A stretch of DNA of 39,879 bases, from assembly GCA_902625365.1 (NCBI GenBank), contig CACOAX010000001.1, forward strand, positions 237,329 to 277,207. Reading direction: 5' to 3'. Both the position numbers and the translations under genes were made by a program. This document shows, piece by piece, positions 5,161 to 30,989 of this stretch (position 1 is its first letter; every line of letters begins with the position of its first letter). The stretch comes from an uncultured Alphaproteobacteria bacterium. GTDB lineage: Bacteria > Pseudomonadota > Alphaproteobacteria > HIMB59 > GCA-002718135. Below the pieces are notes generated by a model, which was not told the origin of the DNA, searched no databases, and worked only from the letters and a program-made list of their open reading frames with translations.

Positions 5161-5496
5161 TTAAGCTAGTTTAGTTTGTGAAGAATCAAAGCTTACTTCC
5201 CATAATTTTTCTAATGCATATAATTCTCTAATTTCTTGTCGAAACAAATGAACAATTATCTCACCTGCATCAACAATTATCCAGTCACATTGAGGTCTTC
5301 CTTCAGGGTTAGGGCAATTTATACCTGCCTTTTTTAATTTTTTGACCATTTCGTCTGCTGTCGCATCTGAATGTCTAGTTGATCTACAAGTAGCAATCAC
5401 AAAGGCATCAGCAACAGATGACTTATTGGATAAATCAATTACTTTTATATCTTCAGCTTTTGCATCACTTAGTATTGATACAATATTTTCTGTCAA
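5161..5496 (-). CDS. rsfS: Ribosome silencing factor RsfS
   Basis: RsfS (Iojap/YbeB family) binds ribosomal protein uL14 and blocks 30S-50S joining when nutrients are low. The 111-residue protein shows the family's core: DIKVIDLSNKSSVADAFVIATCRSTRH, the CPNPEGRPQCDWIIVDAGEIIVHLF segment and the C-terminal YALEKLW. It follows nadD after a 13-base gap. In many proteobacteria rlmH lies immediately downstream; here ctpA follows instead. Confidence 0.95.
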   Translation of the reverse strand: MTENIVSILSDAKAEDIKVIDLSNKSSVADAFVIATCRSTRHSDATADEMVKKLKKAGINCPNPEGRPQCDWIIVDAGEIIVHLFRQEIRELYALEKLWEVSFDSSQTKLA

Positions 5497-5509
5497 TGAA
5501 GTAATTTTA

Positions 5510-6088
5510 TTAATATTTGCCTCTTAATTTATTTCTTTGATTTCTAATTTCAGATGATGAAATTTTAATTTCTTTATTTTGTATCAAAGTCCATGCAGGA
5601 ATTTTATTTGAAACATGTTCTATGTCTTGAGCTATATATTTATTATGAATAAATTTTTTTGCTGCAACACTTTTCAAAGCATTTGTATTATATCCATGTC
5701 TTCTAAAAATAACAATAGAGATAATATGAAAAATTGATTGCCATTTTTCCCATTCGTGGAAATTAACTAAATTGTCTGCACCCATTAACCAAAAAAATTT
5801 AATATTTTTATAATATTGAATTAGAAATTTAATTGTTTGATAAGAATATTGAGATTTAATTTTTTTTTCTACCTCTAATATTTTTATAGGAAAATTTTTT
5901 GTAATTTGTTTACAATTTTGTAATCTTTCTTCGTATGTTGCGGGTTTTGAAATCTTTAAAGGGTTCTGAGGTGTAACTAACCACCAAATTTCATCAAGTT
6001 GTAATACTTTTTTAGCTTCATTGGAAATAAATAGATGCCCACGATGTGGTGGATCAAAAGATCCTCCAAGAAGTCCGATCTTTTTCAA
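5510..6088 (-). CDS. nadD: Nicotinate-nucleotide adenylyltransferase
   Basis: NadD converts nicotinate mononucleotide and ATP to deamido-NAD in NAD synthesis. The N-terminus has the nucleotidyltransferase signature GGSFDPPHRGH (residues 8-18), and the C-terminus has the ISSSEIRNQ motif that corresponds to the family's ISSTxIR. The 192-residue length is normal. The gene directly abuts proA, whose stop codon ends one base before this ATG, and precedes rsfS, as in many proteobacteria. Confidence 0.94.
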   Translation of the reverse strand: MKKIGLLGGSFDPPHRGHLFISNEAKKVLQLDEIWWLVTPQNPLKISKPATYEERLQNCKQITKNFPIKILEVEKKIKSQYSYQTIKFLIQYYKNIKFFWLMGADNLVNFHEWEKWQSIFHIISIVIFRRHGYNTNALKSVAAKKFIHNKYIAQDIEHVSNKIPAWTLIQNKEIKISSSEIRNQRNKLRGKY

Positions 6089-7338
6089 TTAGGGTCTTTC
6101 CTGGCCATTGCCATTAACTACATATTTAAATGTTGTTAAATGTTTTGTTCCCACTGGTCCTCTTACATGTATTTTATCAGTTGAGATTCCTATCTCAGCA
6201 CCAAAACCAAATTCACCACCATCCGCGAATTGGGTAGATGCATTTTTAAGTATTATTGCGCTGTCAATTTTATTATAAAATTTTTCAAAGGTTTTTTCAC
6301 TTTCTGTAATTATACTTTCCGTATGTCCAGAAGAATAATCATTTATATGTTTAACTGCTTCCTCAACACCAGAAACAATTTTTACTGATAAAATTTTATC
6401 TAAATATTCTAATGACCAATCTTCTTCACTGGCAGTTTTAAAATCACTATCTAAAGACTGAATATATTCATCACCTCGAATTTCACAATTTACTTCTTTT
6501 AGAGGTTTCAATATTTTCATTGCTTCATTTTTAATTTGTTCATCAATTAAAAGTGTTTCTGCAGCACCACAAATTTCAGGACGCCTCATTTTACTATTAA
6601 AAACCACTCTTTCTGCAACACTTAAATCAGCATCTTTATCTACATATACATGACATATGCCGTCTAAATGTTTGATGACAGGAATCTTACTTGATGAATT
6701 AATTTTTTCAATCAAACCTTTACCACCTCTAGGAATAATTACATCAACATATTCTCTCATACTAAGTAAATGATCAACCGCTTCTCTTTCAGGTGTATTA
6801 ATCATTTGAACACAATGTTCAGGGAGGCCAGCTTCCGTGAAAGCATTTGTAATATTATTTACCAATTCTTTAGAGGAATGAAAACTATCACTACCACCTC
6901 TTAAAATTATACAATTACCAGATTTTATGGAAAGACAAGAAGCATCAACAGTGACGTTAGGTCTAGATTCATAAATTACACCTAATACACCAAGCGGTGT
7001 TGAAATTTTACGAAACTGCAATCCATTAGGTCTTTTCCATTTTTCTAGTGTAATACCAATAGGATCTGGTATTTCAATTATATCTTCAATTGATGTAATC
7101 AATCCATCAATAGATTTTTCTGTTAATGTAAGTCTATTCATTAAAGGTTTAGCTAAAGATTTTTTTTCTCCATTTTCTAAATCTATCTTATTAGCTTCAA
7201 GAATTTTATCTCTGTTTTTATTTAAATTTTTAGTGAGTTTTGTTAAAGCAAGATTTTTTTGATCACTGCTGCAAATCTTCATATTTAGAGAGGCAGTTTT
7301 TGCTCTTTTGCCTAATTCAATAATATTATTTCCAATAC

Positions 7339-7342
<4 letters not shown>
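6089..7342 (-). CDS. proA: Gamma-glutamyl phosphate reductase
   Basis: ProA reduces gamma-glutamyl phosphate with NADPH to glutamate semialdehyde, the second step of proline synthesis. It is a 417-residue aldehyde dehydrogenase-fold protein with the catalytic cysteine in RRPEICGAAETLL, the cofactor-binding VIYESRPNVTVDA and GNCIILRGGSDS segments, and the FGFGAEIGISTDKIHVRGPVG C-terminal signature. Its start overlaps the end of proB by 4 bases (ATGA type), so the two proline enzymes should be made together. Confidence 0.96.
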
Positions 7343-9436
<2,094 letters not shown>

Positions 9437-9450
9437 TTAATTAATTGGGA

Positions 9451-9708
9451 TTATTGTTCTGTGGGAACAACTGATACAAAAGTTCTTACTCTTGTTTTTT
9501 TAAAAGCTACTTTTCCATTTATTGTAGCAAATATTGTGTGATCTTTACCTATGCCAACATTATCACCTGGATGAAACTTTGTGCCTCGTTGTCTAATAAT
9601 AATGTTTCCTGCTATTACGTTTTCACCACCAAATTTCTTAACTCCAAGTCTTCGACCCGCCGAGTCTCTTCCATTCCTTGAACTACCACCTGCTTTTTTC
9701 GTTGCCAT
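9451..9708 (-). CDS. rpmA: Ribosomal protein bL27
   Basis: bL27 reaches toward the peptidyl transferase centre of the 50S subunit. The 85-residue protein begins [20 protein letters not shown] and continues with the [14 protein letters not shown] segment, both signatures of the family, with no N-terminal processing extension of the Firmicutes kind. The ATG shares one base with the rplU stop codon (TAATG), so rplU and rpmA are coupled. Confidence 0.97.
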
Positions 9709-10229
9709 TATTTATCTTCTTTTTTAGTTTTAACAGTTTTTTTAACAGTTTTCTTTACTGATTTTTTCTTAGTAGGAGAAGCTTTATTTAATGCTTTTTT
9801 TGCAACTGTCTTCTTTTTTGTAACTTTTACTTCTTTAGACTCATTTTTTTCTTTAGTAACTTTAGCTTCAGTTTTTTTAACTTTTTTTGTTTCAGGTTCA
9901 GCAGTGGACTTTTTTCCACCATATGAAATTGATTCTATTCTTAATACAGTCAGATATTGTCTATGCCCTTGTGTTAGTCTGTAATTTTGTCTTTTTCTTT
10001 TTTTAAAAACTATTATTTTTTTATCTCTTATTTGATCAACAATTTTTGCTTCAATTGAAGCATCTTTTAGTAATGGCTCGCCTAAGCTATTTGTGCTTTG
10101 ATCACTGATCGCTAATACATCAGTAATAGACACTTTATCACCTTTGGAACCCTCAAGTTTTTCTACTTTAAGTATCTGACCAGCTCTTGCTGAGTATTGC
10201 TTTCCACCAGTTTTGAAAATTGCTAACAT
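9708..10229 (-). CDS. rplU: Ribosomal protein bL21 with basic C-terminal tail
   Basis: bL21 is a structural protein of the 50S subunit. Residues 1-103 or so match the family ([18 protein letters not shown] at the start, [21 protein letters not shown] near the end). The remaining 70 residues are a low-complexity tail made mainly of Lys, Thr, Val and Ala with repeated KKTVKK-like units. Such tails occur in alphaproteobacterial L21 proteins and are probably disordered and RNA binding. It is the first gene of the minus-strand run down to rppH and has a candidate promoter close upstream. Confidence 0.95.
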
Positions 10230-10246
10230 ATCTTTTGAAGGCGGGG

Positions 10247-10273
10247 TTTATAGTGAACTATGCTAATAGTCAA
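10247..10273 (-). promoter_or_regulatory. Candidate sigma70 promoter of rplU-rpmA-obgE
   Basis: Read on the minus strand, TTGACT (10273-10268) and TATAAA (10252-10247) are separated by 15 bases, and the rplU ATG follows about 17 bases later. Each box matches the consensus at five of six positions, but the spacer is short and the leader would be only about 10 bases, so the exact assignment is uncertain. The interval between gloB and rplU is the only gap where this operon could start. Confidence 0.42.
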
Positions 10274-10309
10274 ATTAAAAATATGGCGCAAATACTGGAA
10301 ATAAAGACC

Positions 10310-11062
10310 TTAAAAGCTATCCTTTGCTTTTCGCAAATAAGCAAACAATTCAAAGTCAGTAAAACCTAGCTCTTTCTTAATTATAGTACTTAATTTTGAA
10401 TTTTGATTCAGGAATAAGTTATATTTTTTTTCATCTTCTAATAAAAAAGGTACAGATTTTCCTTTACTATTTAAATCATCATTAATTTTGTTTCTAACTG
10501 TCAAATAAGAACTTTCTTTTTTGAGTGTTTTCTCAAGAAAATTTAAATTGCTTATTGTATATTCATGACCACAATAAATAATTGTATTTTTATCTAACTC
10601 ATTAATTTTTTTTAAACTATTAAACATTTCATTTAATGTTCCTTCAAACACACGACCACAACCAAGTCTGAACAGTGTATCACCACAAAATAAAACACTA
10701 TTGTTTTCATCATAGTAAATTATATGATCTAATGTATGCCCGGGTGTTTTTATTATTCTAAATGTATTTAAGCAGGAGTTGATCTCATCTCCATCACGTA
10801 AAACAAATCTTGTATTTTCAATCTGGGCACTTGGAGAGTATATATTAACTTCTGGAAAAGCATTAAGTATTCCTTTCACACCTGATGTGTGGTCATTATG
10901 ATGATGTGTAATAAATATATCTTCTATGGTTAAATTGTTTTCAAGAGCAAAATTTAATATAGGATTACTATCAGCAGGATCTACAACACAGCTTTTAAGC
11001 GTGTCATTATATAAAACAAAAGAGTAGTTATCTTTTAATTGATTTATAATTTCAACTTTCAT
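10310..11062 (-). CDS. gloB: Hydroxyacylglutathione hydrolase (glyoxalase II)
   Basis: Glyoxalase II splits S-lactoylglutathione into lactate and glutathione, ending methylglyoxal detoxification. The 250-residue metallo-beta-lactamase-fold protein carries the metal motif THHHNDH (residues 52-58), then KTPGHTLDH and FCGDTLF with the other ligands, CGRVFEGT, and YCGHEYT, followed by the glyoxalase II helical C-terminal domain. It lies 7 bases downstream of metW; the pairing with metW/metX is probably an operon of convenience. Confidence 0.92.
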   Translation of the reverse strand: MKVEIINQLKDNYSFVLYNDTLKSCVVDPADSNPILNFALENNLTIEDIFITHHHNDHTSGVKGILNAFPEVNIYSPSAQIENTRFVLRDGDEINSCLNTFRIIKTPGHTLDHIIYYDENNSVLFCGDTLFRLGCGRVFEGTLNEMFNSLKKINELDKNTIIYCGHEYTISNLNFLEKTLKKESSYLTVRNKINDDLNSKGKSVPFLLEDEKKYNLFLNQNSKLSTIIKKELGFTDFELFAYLRKAKDSF

Positions 11063-27889: not shown

Positions 27890-28355
27890 AGTATCTAAAT
27901 AAATAAATAGCATTTAAAATAAAAATAACTAGTAAAACAAGTGTATTAATTGAAGCAGCAGAAATTCCAAAAAAACTCCAAATAACTTCATCACAACTAA
28001 TTACCTGTTTTGATAATATCTGTGCTTTTAGGTCTTCAGCACTCTTACTGTTTGTTAGCACTGCCGAACAACCTGTTGGTCCCTTAAAAATTTTATTCTC
28101 AACTCCAACGTGCCATATAGAATAAAAAAGACCGTAAACTGACGCAAACTGTATTACTAAATAAAGCCAAATTATATTTAAATTTTTGAATAAAAATATC
28201 AGAATTAAGCATAGTAAAATTAAATAATACGGATGTCTTTGCTTTAAACACAATTCACATGGTTGAAGATTAAAAAAATATTCTGCAATTAATGCTGATG
28301 ATATTGAGATTAATGATATTACAAATAAAAGCCGCGTCCAATTACGAATTATCAT
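27861..28355 (-). CDS. dsbB: Disulfide bond formation protein DsbB
   Basis: DsbB is an inner-membrane protein that reoxidises DsbA using quinone. The 164 residues form four hydrophobic helices, with the first periplasmic pair in PCELCLKQ (C33, C36) and the second pair in GPTGCSA (C96) and ISCDE (C121), which is the expected CxxC plus spaced pair. Its start overlaps the upstream DedA-like gene by 4 bases (ATGA) and its end overlaps coq7, which supplies the pathway to its electron acceptor ubiquinone. Confidence 0.9.
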   Translation of the reverse strand: MIIRNWTRLLFVISLISISSALIAEYFFNLQPCELCLKQRHPYYLILLCLILIFLFKNLNIIWLYLVIQFASVYGLFYSIWHVGVENKIFKGPTGCSAVLTNSKSAEDLKAQILSKQVISCDEVIWSFFGISAASINTLVLLVIFILNAIYLFRYYGYKKEKNV

Positions 28356-28936
28356 AAAAATCTAATTATAAAAAGACTTCCAACAAGTAAAATAAAAAAA
28401 ACAATAGTTAAAATATTAAAATATTTATCAATAATTAATTTAATTTTTTCACCAAAAAAATACAGAAGTATTGCTATCAAATAAAAACGAAATCCTCGCC
28501 CAATAATTGAAACAACAATAAATAAAATAATATTTAACCCAAATACACCACTTGCAATTGTAATAAACTTATATGGAAAGGGAGTTATGCCAGCACCTAA
28601 AACTATCAATATACCAAATTCTTTGTAGTAATTTTCAAAGATACCAAAAGAATTTTCAAAATGATAAAAATCAACAATATAAATACCTAACGATTTATAA
28701 AAAAAATACCCAATTCCATATCCTAGGATTCCACCAAGAACAGAAAAGAGTGTGCAGATAAATGCATAAAATAAAGCCCTTGCTTTAGAAGCTAATGCCA
28801 TTGGTATTAGAAGTATATCGGGTGGAATTGGAAAAAATGAACTCTCTGCAAAAGATATTAAACTTAAATACCACTTTGCATTTCTATGTTCTGCTTTTTT
28901 TAACGTCCAATCGTAAATATTTTTTAGAAAGTTCAT
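28352..28936 (-). CDS. YqaA/DedA-family membrane protein
   Basis: A 194-residue polytopic membrane protein of the SNARE-associated/VTT (DedA, YqaA) family, some of which act as lipid flippases. The family segment FAESSFFPIPPDILLIPMAL lies near residues 29-48, followed by GGILGYGIGYFFYKSLG and the reentrant-type GAGITPFPYKFITIASG. The correct start is the ATG at 28936; an in-frame ATG at 28981 lies inside the tRNA-Leu gene and the extra residues are a translation of the tRNA. It begins 13 bases downstream of the tRNA and leads into dsbB and coq7. Confidence 0.88.
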   Translation of the reverse strand: MNFLKNIYDWTLKKAEHRNAKWYLSLISFAESSFFPIPPDILLIPMALASKARALFYAFICTLFSVLGGILGYGIGYFFYKSLGIYIVDFYHFENSFGIFENYYKEFGILIVLGAGITPFPYKFITIASGVFGLNIILFIVVSIIGRGFRFYLIAILLYFFGEKIKLIIDKYFNILTIVFFILLVGSLFIIRFL

Positions 28937-28948
28937 TATAATTAATAC

Positions 28949-29033
28949 TGGTAGGAGTAGAGGGAATCGAACCCACACCACCGAAGTGACCGGATTTTGA
29001 ATCCGGCGCGTCTACCAGTTCCGCCATACTCCC
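28949..29033 (-). tRNA. tRNA-Leu (anticodon CAA)
   Basis: An 85-base class II tRNA with encoded CCA. On the minus strand it begins GGGAGTATGGCGGAACTGG, has an anticodon stem CCGGA/TCCGG around loop TTCAAAA (anticodon CAA, reads UUG), a variable arm (TCACTTCGGTG region), the GGTTCGATTCC T arm, and TACTCCT with discriminator A before CCA. The acceptor stem is complete except that the first pair is G1-U72 rather than G-C. It is intact, unlike the related copy at 30226-30310. Confidence 0.95.
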
Positions 29034-29336
29034 AGTTTATTTTTCCCTGTAATACTTGGTTTTGAAAACTAAGTCTATGTACATATTATTAATTATTAAA
29101 AGTTTAGGGTGACAATAGGGAAGCCAAAAAAAAGAACATATTTAATTATTTAAAGAATCAATATGATTCGTTATCTGAGTTTTGATTTACTAGGATAGTC
29201 TAATTTGGCTTATTTTGTTTTAAATCAATTATTATTAAGTAAGGTATCTTAAAGCCATAATCTCAAATATTCTTTGCTTTCTATTTTTTTTCAATAACTA
29301 CTGAAAATAATTTAAATTAAAGTATAATTTTATTTG
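29034..29336. other. AT-rich spacer between tRNA-Leu and the sulfotransferase-like gene
   Basis: About 300 bases without a gene on either strand. It must hold the promoter of the minus-strand tRNA; TAGACT and TATTAC, 17 bases apart, lie just upstream of the tRNA 5' end and are a weak candidate. It also holds one copy of a 14-base direct repeat (29104-29117). No other ordered structure is evident. Confidence 0.5.
29104..29117 (+). repeat. Direct repeat, left copy, beside sulfotransferase-like gene
   Basis: The sequence TTAGGGTGACAATA matches TTAGAGTGACAATA at 30168-30181 in 13 of 14 positions and in the same direction. The two copies bracket the sulfotransferase-like gene at distances of 219 and 69 bases. 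Such a length can arise by chance in AT-rich DNA, but the GTGACAATA core is not simple AT sequence. Confidence 0.45.
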
Positions 29337-30098
29337 ATGAAAAATAAAAATATCATTTTTTTACATATTCCTAAAACTGCTGGCACTACAATTCAAACAG
29401 GCTTGAGAAATATTGCAGATAATCATAAAAAGGTGGTTTTTTCTAAAGCTGCTGTGCCCGGTTTAGTAGACCATTTTTCACTAGATCATTTTAAAAACCT
29501 AGATTTAAATGAAAATATTAATATTTTAAAAGGTCATTTTGTATTTAGTGATATTTGTAAAAATTTTGAATTATTTTCAATGGTTCGAGAAATTGTAGAT
29601 CTCTTTATCTCTAATTTGTATTTTTTTTATATTGAAGAATATTTGAGACGAAATTTAAATTCTGATAATATTACAAACATAAAAAAAAAGATAAATATAG
29701 ATTTAACCTTATCTAATAGTGATTTAAAAATTATTTCTAAATTATTAAAATACAATTTTGTAAATTCTAATTTAATAACAAAAACCTTAGCTGGAATTCC
29801 TTTTGAAAAACATTTTTTTGTTGAAGAAGATTATAAATTAATTGAAGAAGATTTTTTTCTTGCAAAAGAAAATTTAAAATATTTCACATATATTGGCAAT
29901 ACCACAAATGTCCAAAAATTTTTAAATTTTCTTTTACAGTATGTCCCTGTAAAATCTTTTGAAGTAAGCCATAAAAGATTTTTCAAAAAAGATCAAAAAT
30001 TAATAAATGATATTAAATATAATCTAGCTGATCAAATAAAAGAATACAATTATTTTGATACAGAAATGCTTAAAATAATAAAAAATAAATATCAATAA
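29337..30098 (+). CDS. Sulfotransferase-like protein
   Basis: A 253-residue protein starting at the ATG at 29337. The N-terminal FLHIPKTAGTTIQ is the PAPS-binding (5'-phosphosulfate loop) signature of the Sulfotransfer_2 type family found in glycan sulfotransferases. The second expected motif (F-x-x-R-D-P-x-x-R-x-x-S) appears only as FSMVREIVDLFIS, with the DP pair and the second Arg lost. The rest is Lys/Asn/Ile-rich and not recognisable. GC content is visibly lower than its neighbours, and it has long intergenic gaps on both sides, a pseudo-tRNA and flanking repeats, all of which suggest a transferred or decaying gene. Function: possibly sulfation of a surface glycan, if active. Confidence 0.65.
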   Translation: MKNKNIIFLHIPKTAGTTIQTGLRNIADNHKKVVFSKAAVPGLVDHFSLDHFKNLDLNENINILKGHFVFSDICKNFELFSMVREIVDLFISNLYFFYIEEYLRRNLNSDNITNIKKKINIDLTLSNSDLKIISKLLKYNFVNSNLITKTLAGIPFEKHFFVEEDYKLIEEDFFLAKENLKYFTYIGNTTNVQKFLNFLLQYVPVKSFEVSHKRFFKKDQKLINDIKYNLADQIKEYNYFDTEMLKIIKNKYQ

Positions 30099-30167
30099 CT
30101 CCAATTATATATTTATTTCTAACCTAAATTTTTTTGTAAATCCTATAACTTCTCAGCTTTTTAAACC

Positions 30168-30181
30168 TTAGAGTGACAATA
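30168..30181 (+). repeat. Direct repeat, right copy, beside sulfotransferase-like gene
   Basis: The sequence TTAGAGTGACAATA pairs with the left copy at 29104-29117 (13 of 14 bases). It lies 45 bases to the left of the tRNA-Leu pseudogene. Confidence 0.45.
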
Positions 30182-30225
30182 CAACAATTAATTATATATA
30201 AAATTGTTTGCTGAATATTATTCAG

Positions 30226-30310
30226 TTGAATAATTAGTATAAATAATACCTTCAACACTAAATTGACTGTATTTCGAATCCGGTATGTCTGCCATTTCCG
30301 CCATAATCCT
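30226..30310 (-). pseudogene. Decayed tRNA-Leu copy
   Basis: On the minus strand the first 50 bases (from 30310) match the first 50 bases of the intact tRNA-Leu at 39 positions without gaps, including TATGGCGGAA, CCGGATTC and GTCA. The remaining 35 bases keep only scattered identity (GTG, TG, GGT, ATT), no 3' acceptor strand pairs with the 5' end, and the anticodon loop reads TTCGAAA. It cannot fold as a tRNA and is a relic of a duplicated or displaced tRNA-Leu, in the same orientation as the intact gene 1.2 kb away. Confidence 0.75.
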
Positions 30311-30383
30311 TAATTATTTTTATTAATATTTCTTGGTTTTTATATTTTAGCACATGAGGTTGTTCGGTAAAATTAAATAAGTT

Positions 30384-30989
30384 TTATTTTCTTTTTAAAT
30401 TAAATTTAGAGGCAACTGTTGTATACTCACTGTATCCCATCCTGGCAATATAATGCATTGATACACTATCTACTCTATTATTTTTGATAAATTTGTCTTT
30501 TATAAAAATTCCAATTACTTCTCCAATTATCATTGTTGAAGTTTCTTTTGTGTTTGACTTAAGTTTAATTGTTTTTACTAACTTACATTCTAAATTTACA
30601 GGACTATCTTTAACAGAAGGTGCTCTAACAAGTTTTGACTTTTTCTTTTTTAATTTTGATAAAATAAATTCATCTTCATCTGGTTTATAATCTTTGGAAC
30701 TATTGTTCATTTGATTTCGTGTTGAAGATGTGGCAAAATTTACAACAAACTCTTTTGTAGACAAAATATTAGATAAAGAATCTTTATATTTGTAGCTAAA
30801 TGAACCACCATTTGAACAAAACATAATTTGTGGAGGCTCATCAGCAACTGCATTAAAATACGAGTAAGGAGCTAGATTAGCTATTCCTTTTTTATTTACA
30901 GAAGATATCCATCCAATTGGTCTTGGAAAAATAAGTGATTTAAAAGGATTTACATCAAAAGGTACTCCCTTTTTTGGCTCATAAAACAT
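30384..30989 (-). CDS. Flavin reductase-like protein
   Basis: A 201-residue protein with the FMN-binding split-barrel fold of the flavin reductase / DIM6-NTAB family: MFYEPKKG at the start, FPRPIGWISSVNKKGIANLAPYS, FNAVADEPPQIMF and EFVVNFATSS are the family's typical segments. Members reduce flavin with NAD(P)H or bind FMN for a partner; the partner is not evident here. It follows sufE by 9 bases and is the last gene of the galE-galT-sufE run. Confidence 0.85.
   Translation of the reverse strand: MFYEPKKGVPFDVNPFKSLIFPRPIGWISSVNKKGIANLAPYSYFNAVADEPPQIMFCSNGGSFSYKYKDSLSNILSTKEFVVNFATSSTRNQMNNSSKDYKPDEDEFILSKLKKKKSKLVRAPSVKDSPVNLECKLVKTIKLKSNTKETSTMIIGEVIGIFIKDKFIKNNRVDSVSMHYIARMGYSEYTTVASKFNLKRK

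Follow-up and report, generated by a model that had tools for sequence, protein, structure and literature searches.

A probable tyrosine-integrase attachment scar around a one-gene cassette at tRNA-Leu(CAA) in an uncultured HIMB59 alphaproteobacterium

How did a single, very AT-rich gene come to lie between an intact tRNA-Leu and a decayed copy of the same tRNA? We addressed this question in a 39,879-nucleotide stretch of contig CACOAX010000001.1 (assembly GCA_902625365.1), here called the window, from an uncultured member of the order HIMB59. This order is also called AEGEAN-169 (PMC10308909), and the single-cell genome AG-891-K05 is given as a genomospecies reference in its family GCA002718135 (PMC10734472). 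The initial annotation had seen in the locus a sign of past insertion or duplication at the tRNA. Since the preserved part of the decayed copy is the 5' half, it favoured duplication followed by replacement over a classical att site.

The intact tRNA-Leu(CAA) is positioned at 28949-29033 on the minus strand (ARAGORN; Rfam RF00005, 56.8 bits) and we take it as the right attachment junction. The left junction is a relic of tRNA-Leu positions 1-62 at 30249-30310, also on the minus strand, where 30310 corresponds to tRNA position 1 and 30249 to position 62. Aligned to the intact tRNA in the same orientation, the relic is identical at 39 of the first 50 bases, exactly the count in the initial annotation, and at 46 of all 62. 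Its local alignment score of 32 was reached by none of 1000 dinucleotide shuffles (mean 9.0, maximum 14). The relic thus stands as tRNA-Leu by alignment, with no Rfam covariance-model match at E<=1; a miss of this kind would be expected of a 5' part in decay. The stretch separating relic position 62 from the intact tRNA is 1,215 bp long and encloses one ORF. As noted initially, the gaps around this ORF are unusually long, because the mean intergenic spacer of the family is 3.32 bp (PMC10734472). The chromosomal neighbours are a flavin reductase-like gene on the left (30384-30989, minus strand; PF01613) and a VTT-domain (YqaA-like) gene on the right (28352-28936, minus strand; PF09335 at 1.4e-4, below the curated cut-off).

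To compare the locus across relatives we mapped 68 sequences: the window, 7 earlier loci and 60 fetched loci, the last hand-picked from those of the 102 genomes that had matches. For counting we used the 45 loci (44 relatives and the window) in which a single contig holds the flavin gene, the VTT gene and a tRNA copy. The gene order, where present, is galT - sufE - flavin reductase - tRNA site - VTT - dsbB - coq7 - HNH. Three of the 45 loci (L066, L069 and L072) are fully empty, with the flavin gene, the tRNA and the VTT gene and nothing else. There is no insert upstream of the tRNA in 13 loci, and extra DNA is present there in 32.

In the empty relatives the intact tRNA stands where the window has the relic. 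Counted from the last sense codon of the flavin gene, the relic starts at offset 77 and the intact tRNA of the three empty relatives at offsets 74, 76 and 77. On the other side, 13 bp separate the intact tRNA from the VTT gene, both in the window and in these three relatives. The 76 bp next to the relic (30311-30386, minus strand, including the flavin gene stop codon) represent the native 5' flank of the original tRNA with its decaying promoter: compared with the native flank of the relative G053, the relic side is identical at 67 of 76 positions and the flank of the intact copy at 48 of 76. The promoter region of the intact tRNA (29034-29079, minus strand; TAGACT and TATTAC separated by 17 bp, recognised by eye) would therefore have been supplied by the inserted element; similar boxes also precede many other tRNA copies. 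We infer that the intact tRNA gene combines a promoter and 5' half from the element with a 3' half from the chromosome.

The comparison that the initial annotation had proposed thus returned relatives without the interval and relatives with different cargo between the same landmarks. This supported its suspicion of a past insertion, and the tRNA-Leu(CAA) site is an insertion hotspot in related genomes. In the relative G115 (L067), a perfect 1-62 relic is followed by two ORFs, one with an SNase domain, and an intact tRNA. The cargo of the sampled inserts, from a scan of 20 proteins of which not all are cargo, included an FkbM methyltransferase and other methyltransferases, a rhodanese, a bactofilin, an exonuclease, a MORN-repeat protein, a polysaccharide lyase, a DNA methylase with HNH and also proteins that Pfam did not match. 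Larger islands at the site reach 17 kb.

Several further arrangements were observed at this site. About 1.2 kb with an MFS-type gene lies between the tRNA and the VTT gene in L083, L085, L086, L088, L096, L097 and others; in some relatives it forms a tandem pair, and it is missing from the window, G053, G115, G054 and G022. Within the island of G092 the flavin reductase gene occurs a second time, as an interrupted partial copy (G092:C2:67726-67866, residues 154-200). In L107 (G010) and L104 (G071) a cassette lies between two full-length tRNA-Leu(CAA) copies, which is possibly the stage before one half decays.

Next, we looked at which parts of the tRNA are kept in the relics. Two copies were omitted, the one at the contig end of L121 and the alien tRNA of L123. 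In the class of 5' relics (24 copies), tRNA positions 1-41 are kept; this class includes long, diverged copies such as those of L113 at 8457, L121 at 1974 and L120 at 1275. The 9 copies classed as 3' relics keep positions 32-85, and the copies of L077 and L098, which match from position 2, were put into this class by hand. Positions 32-41, ATTCAAAATC, are the anticodon loop and its edges. They are retained in at least 21 of the 24 5' relics and at least 8 of the 9 3' relics, and besides them no stretch is well kept in both classes, only the isolated position 68. Tyrosine integrases usually cross over with the anticodon stem as the inverted repeat. Since the 5' and 3' relics overlap in ATTCAAAATC, the crossover probably took place there, with the anticodon stem as the inverted repeat.

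In one relative (L123, G042:C1, oriented 5431-10316) an element of 4.8 kb divides the host tRNA-Leu(CAA) into 1-41 and about 32-85, with ATTCAAAATC in both parts. This element contains two ORFs, one integrase-like and one serine-recombinase-like, and also a complete divergent tRNA-Leu(CAA). We found no intact native tRNA-Leu(CAA) copy in this genome, which is 79% complete, and the insertion apparently breaks the tRNA and brings a substitute.

Beyond the tRNA part, seven relics, which we call class A, share about 80 nt past position 62 (L113 less). This stretch contains paired TTGTTGxCC-like repeats 11 bp apart, as judged by eye. The exact class A pattern, which takes in the final 8 bases of the tRNA portion, is present in 9 of the 102 genomes, always at a partial tRNA-Leu copy, and in a tenth genome with one mismatch. 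It has no exact match in the window's own genome, where the shared sequence follows the relic in decayed form (30164-30248, minus strand) and aligns with the left end of the G093 element. The 14-base direct repeat that had been reported to bracket the gene is real and belongs to these arms, with the right-end copy TTAGGGTGACAATA at 29104-29117 and the left-end copy TTAGAGTGACAATA at 30168-30181, both on the minus strand. The elements with 3' relics start with a different sequence and have similar repeats at an equal distance. The left and right arms of one cassette are more alike than arms between cassettes (25 cassettes; 1 of 5000 permutations), with the right arm of the window ranking third of 25 for its left arm and several cassettes ranking low.

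We also inspected by eye the halves discarded by the 3' relics. In 6 of the 9, the discarded 5' half resembles a decayed tRNA 5' half with a promoter-like flank before it; no such half was found in L076, L081 and L123. Because the discarded halves keep the promoter-like flank and the resemblance to tRNA, the attP sites may derive from whole tRNA genes.

There is no integrase gene inside the interval and no PF00589 match in the window's own genome, which is 55% complete. PF00589 matches occur in 81 of the 102 genomes, and many of them belong to a single conserved protein, about 365 aa long and probably a housekeeping Xer recombinase. Three integrases are located at tRNA-Leu(CAA), in G093, G044 and G002. 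They are 75-85% identical to each other, while their next relatives among 162 genomes of the order reach at most 60% identity. The G093 integrase lies directly after a perfect 1-62 relic, and the right end of its element is beyond the contig. The G044 integrase follows a diverged tRNA copy that closes a sulfotransferase-like cassette. The G002 integrase is of the phage type and is part of a 9.5-kb element with a 3' relic (25-85) and a DUF5906 protein. Closely related integrases at tRNA-Leu(CAA) thus accompany both relic polarities. The G002 element (L081, G002:C7, 1492-10976) encodes the integrase, a DNA-binding protein and a DUF5906/VapE-like protein, and looks like a phage satellite.

A trace of such an integrase is probably left in the window. 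Aligning the 150 nt past the relic to the left end of the G093 element gives a score of 34, which none of 1000 shuffles reached (maximum 19); the corresponding counts for the left ends of G002 and G044 are 0 and 30 of 1000 shuffles. Part of this match, at 30115-30164 on the minus strand, is a probable remnant of the ribosome-binding region and first codons of an integrase, as it corresponds to the start of the G093 integrase. Taken alone, the integrase-start part is a moderate match: it was reached by 4 (G093), 25 (G002) and 158 (G044) of 2000 shuffles. In a survey of the relatives, L098 (score 48) and L110 (score 46) have clear integrase-start remnants. The survey also gave weak matches (15-17) beyond the intact tRNA in five genomes, and since no integrase is expected there, its weaker matches are unreliable. 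These results suggest that at least some integrase-less cassettes are deletion derivatives, the one in the window probably among them.

We searched for a vector carrying these arms and found none in viral contigs or phage records. The exact class A, class C and alien-tRNA patterns had no matches in viral contigs, a search that distant relatives would escape. The G093 integrase gave 11 pattern matches in viral contigs, none of which was confirmed, and the primase-like protein of G002 gave no match there. Among phage records, 113 matched the G093 integrase, all below 60% identity (12 were listed at 32%).

Integrases were also seen at other tRNA genes. Six of them (L190, L192, L199, L203, L204 and L205) begin or end within about 130 bp of, or overlap, tRNA genes, namely tRNA-Arg(ACG), tRNA-Gln(TTG) (two), tRNA-Gly(GCC) and tRNA-Leu(TAA) (two). 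Other tRNA genes of the genus may host similar inserts.

The gene inside the interval had been described as very AT-rich and sulfotransferase-like. The former is accurate: it is a single ORF of 253 aa (29337-30098, plus strand; ATG at 29337, with TTG at 29334 likewise open) with 20.9% G+C against 30.4% for the window. The latter label is only partly supported. One of five aligned homologues matched PF03567 (Sulfotransfer_2, 3.8e-7), and the motif FLHIPKTAGTT is invariant in the five except for one position; the window protein itself gave nothing above the cut-off in Pfam or NCBIfam. Its structure model was unusable (mean pLDDT 40.7). Of two PDB sequence searches one returned nothing and the other one chain at E 0.28, which was not usable, and phage records gave no match.

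Homologues of the cargo protein were found at E<=0.001 in 10 of the 102 genomes, the window's own included. Nine of these hold the gene at the tRNA-Leu site, so that its distribution is patchy and, within the count, confined to this site. The match in G112 lies elsewhere and was omitted from the count as weak (31% over 90 aa). Among the nine, the homologue in G073 lies next to the flavin gene on a short contig where no tRNA is visible. Compared with five homologues, the window gene has dN 0.22-0.31 and dS 0.83-1.29 (dN/dS 0.24-0.28), and with a sixth, L091, dN 0.55 and dS 0.92 (dN/dS 0.60). By these ratios the gene appears to be under purifying selection.

We then compared the similarity of cargo with that of core genes. 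Between G083 and three other genomes, the c12 cargo has 88-90% identity, and VTT and coq7 have 72-78%. The c7 cargo was more alike than all three compared core genes in 5 of 10 genome pairs. The c1 cargo, which includes the window's gene, and most c8 pairs are less alike than core genes; the c1 and c8 identities are by themselves no proof of recent transfer.

The relic also informs on the age of the insertion. In its chromosomal half 8 of 39 positions are changed. At synonymous sites G115 is the nearest of six relatives (dS 0.42), and the divergence between the window and G053 is 0.54, counting both lineages together. Given a similar rate of drift in the relic, the insertion would date from about the time of the split from G053. 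Judged by its flank, the relic is most similar to G053 and G050 (67/76 each) and not to G115, the closest of the six by synonymous sites, and this difference in ranking hints at a mosaic ancestry.

We conclude, with a probability of roughly 0.87, that the interval is a one-gene cassette without an integrase, enclosed by a decayed tyrosine-integrase attachment scar whose polarity is the rarer one, with a 5' fragment. We base this on the geometry of the site, the empty sites, the arms, the homologous integrases at the same tRNA and the differing cargo, all of which are direct observations. The proposed course of events is as follows. A tyrosine-integrase element would have recombined with tRNA-Leu(CAA) in the anticodon loop, the exact crossover being deduced from the relics. 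Its attP would have carried a working tRNA promoter and 5' half, so that the new intact gene would consist of the element's 5' half and the chromosomal 3' half, and the old chromosomal 5' half would have been left as a decaying relic. The integrase would then have been lost while the attachment arms, and probably the first codons of the integrase, stayed, leaving one sulfotransferase-like gene between the two junctions. In relatives, the same site collects other inserts, which often hold one or two genes from one tRNA copy to the next and sometimes stand in tandem. These were probably inserted and moved in trans by the integrases of a few complete elements.

The duplication route of the initial annotation, in which the tRNA is duplicated, one copy decays and a gene is captured between them without an integrase, was rejected because of the flanks, the arms and the common breakpoints, and we regard it as highly improbable. 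It would fit the two full-length copies (>=95% identical) in G010 and G071, as well as the absence of an integrase from the interval itself. However, the relic bears the native flank and the intact copy a different one. Duplication does not predict arms common to genomes with differing cargo or integrase genes after relics, and the breakpoints of 5' and 3' relics fall in the same ten bases. Relatives have perfect 1-62 relics with a conserved arm, in one case with an integrase gene directly after the relic, and the relic in the window has the arm in decayed form. Nor does the preserved 5' half argue against an att site, since 5'-fragment islands are known and make up 159 of 3919 islands in Islander (PMC4383910); anticodon-centred crossovers account for 2083 of the 3919 in the same source.

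Two other scenarios concern the later history of the cassette. It might have been made by an integrase in another lineage and have arrived in this one by homologous recombination through the flanking genes, which would have brought the junctions along. This would explain only the last transfer and is compatible with an attachment scar; we consider it rather unlikely. An old insertion speaks for it, the 8/39 relic changes being about half of the dS to G053, and so does the affinity of the relic flank to G053/G050 and not to G115. Homologous recombination has also been proposed for phosphate islands in the HIMB59 island paper (PMC10734472). The flank of 76 bp, however, is too short to decide. 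That the interval is a mobile cassette even today, excised by an integrase in trans, seems to us very unlikely. The gene is apparently under purifying selection and both junctions and arms are recognisable, but the arms are decayed and the left core, TTCGAAATACAG, has one change in its loop and no longer shows the symmetry of the stem. Owing to this lost symmetry, the cassette in the window is probably fixed and no longer mobile.

The attachment scar can be placed in a wider model, which we put forward tentatively, as a possibility short of an even chance. One integrase lineage would insert exchangeable small cassettes on either side of tRNA-Leu(CAA), much as at an integron platform, with the side set by the working tRNA half. 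Every attP would stem from a complete tRNA gene, one half of which decays, and most cassettes would be integrase-less and moved in trans by a few satellite-like complete elements. The likeness of the window cassette to integron gene cassettes is one of layout only.

Cassettes at tRNA genes and cis-mobilizable elements are already known kinds, and the interval is a variant of them. Like the islands in Islander, it pairs an intact tDNA with a displaced end fragment, which lies on the expected side and points the same way (PMC4383910). Islander discards islands that are shorter than 2 kb or lack an integrase (PMC4383910); unlike the islands it retains, our interval is 1,215 bp long and without an integrase, and it would be discarded. 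Set against the features of a tRNA-targeting island, we found the fragment geometry and the empty relatives, and neither an integrase nor a length of at least 2 kb. The interval does have the form of a cis-mobilizable element (CIME), with attL- and attR-like junctions, the left one decayed, and no integrase or transfer genes. In Dehalococcoides, 15 ssrA islands without integration modules are discussed as cis-mobilizable elements (PMC3146451). There, too, att-bounded units without an integrase occur in tandem with integrase-bearing units at one RNA gene, as described for CIMEs and accretion (PMC3146451). By comparison with that account, the units studied here are very small, the integrase is of the tyrosine and not the serine type, and both 5' and 3' relics occur.

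Cassettes at tRNA genes have been described in flexible islands of Ca. Actinomarinales (PMC7771536) and in Methylophilaceae (PMC10872708). The accessible parts of these two sources do not describe the attachment arms and two polarities seen here, and the repeat in Methylophilaceae is the last 20 bp of tRNA-Lys, unlike here (PMC10872708). Tycheposons are tRNA-anchored cargo elements with a tyrosine recombinase (PMC10872708), to which the 9.5-kb G002 element is comparable; they measure 4-200 kb (PMC10872708), whereas the unit in the window is 1.2 kb and has no recombinase. The HIMB59 island paper mentions tRNA once in its accessible part, where its islands lack tRNA at their boundaries (PMC10734472). 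In searches of open-licence PMC papers we met no description of this tRNA-Leu site.

Related integrases with opposite polarities at one tRNA offer a directly testable idea on the evolution of attachment sites. These genomes are streamlined, yet within one genus they differ at the tRNA-Leu site by whole genes, and the site points to a way in which genes could be acquired singly or in pairs. A standard tRNA-island finder such as Islander would miss such gains, as it drops islands below 2 kb or without an integrase. With their decaying relics, the arrays could give the relative ages of gene gains in uncultured cells.
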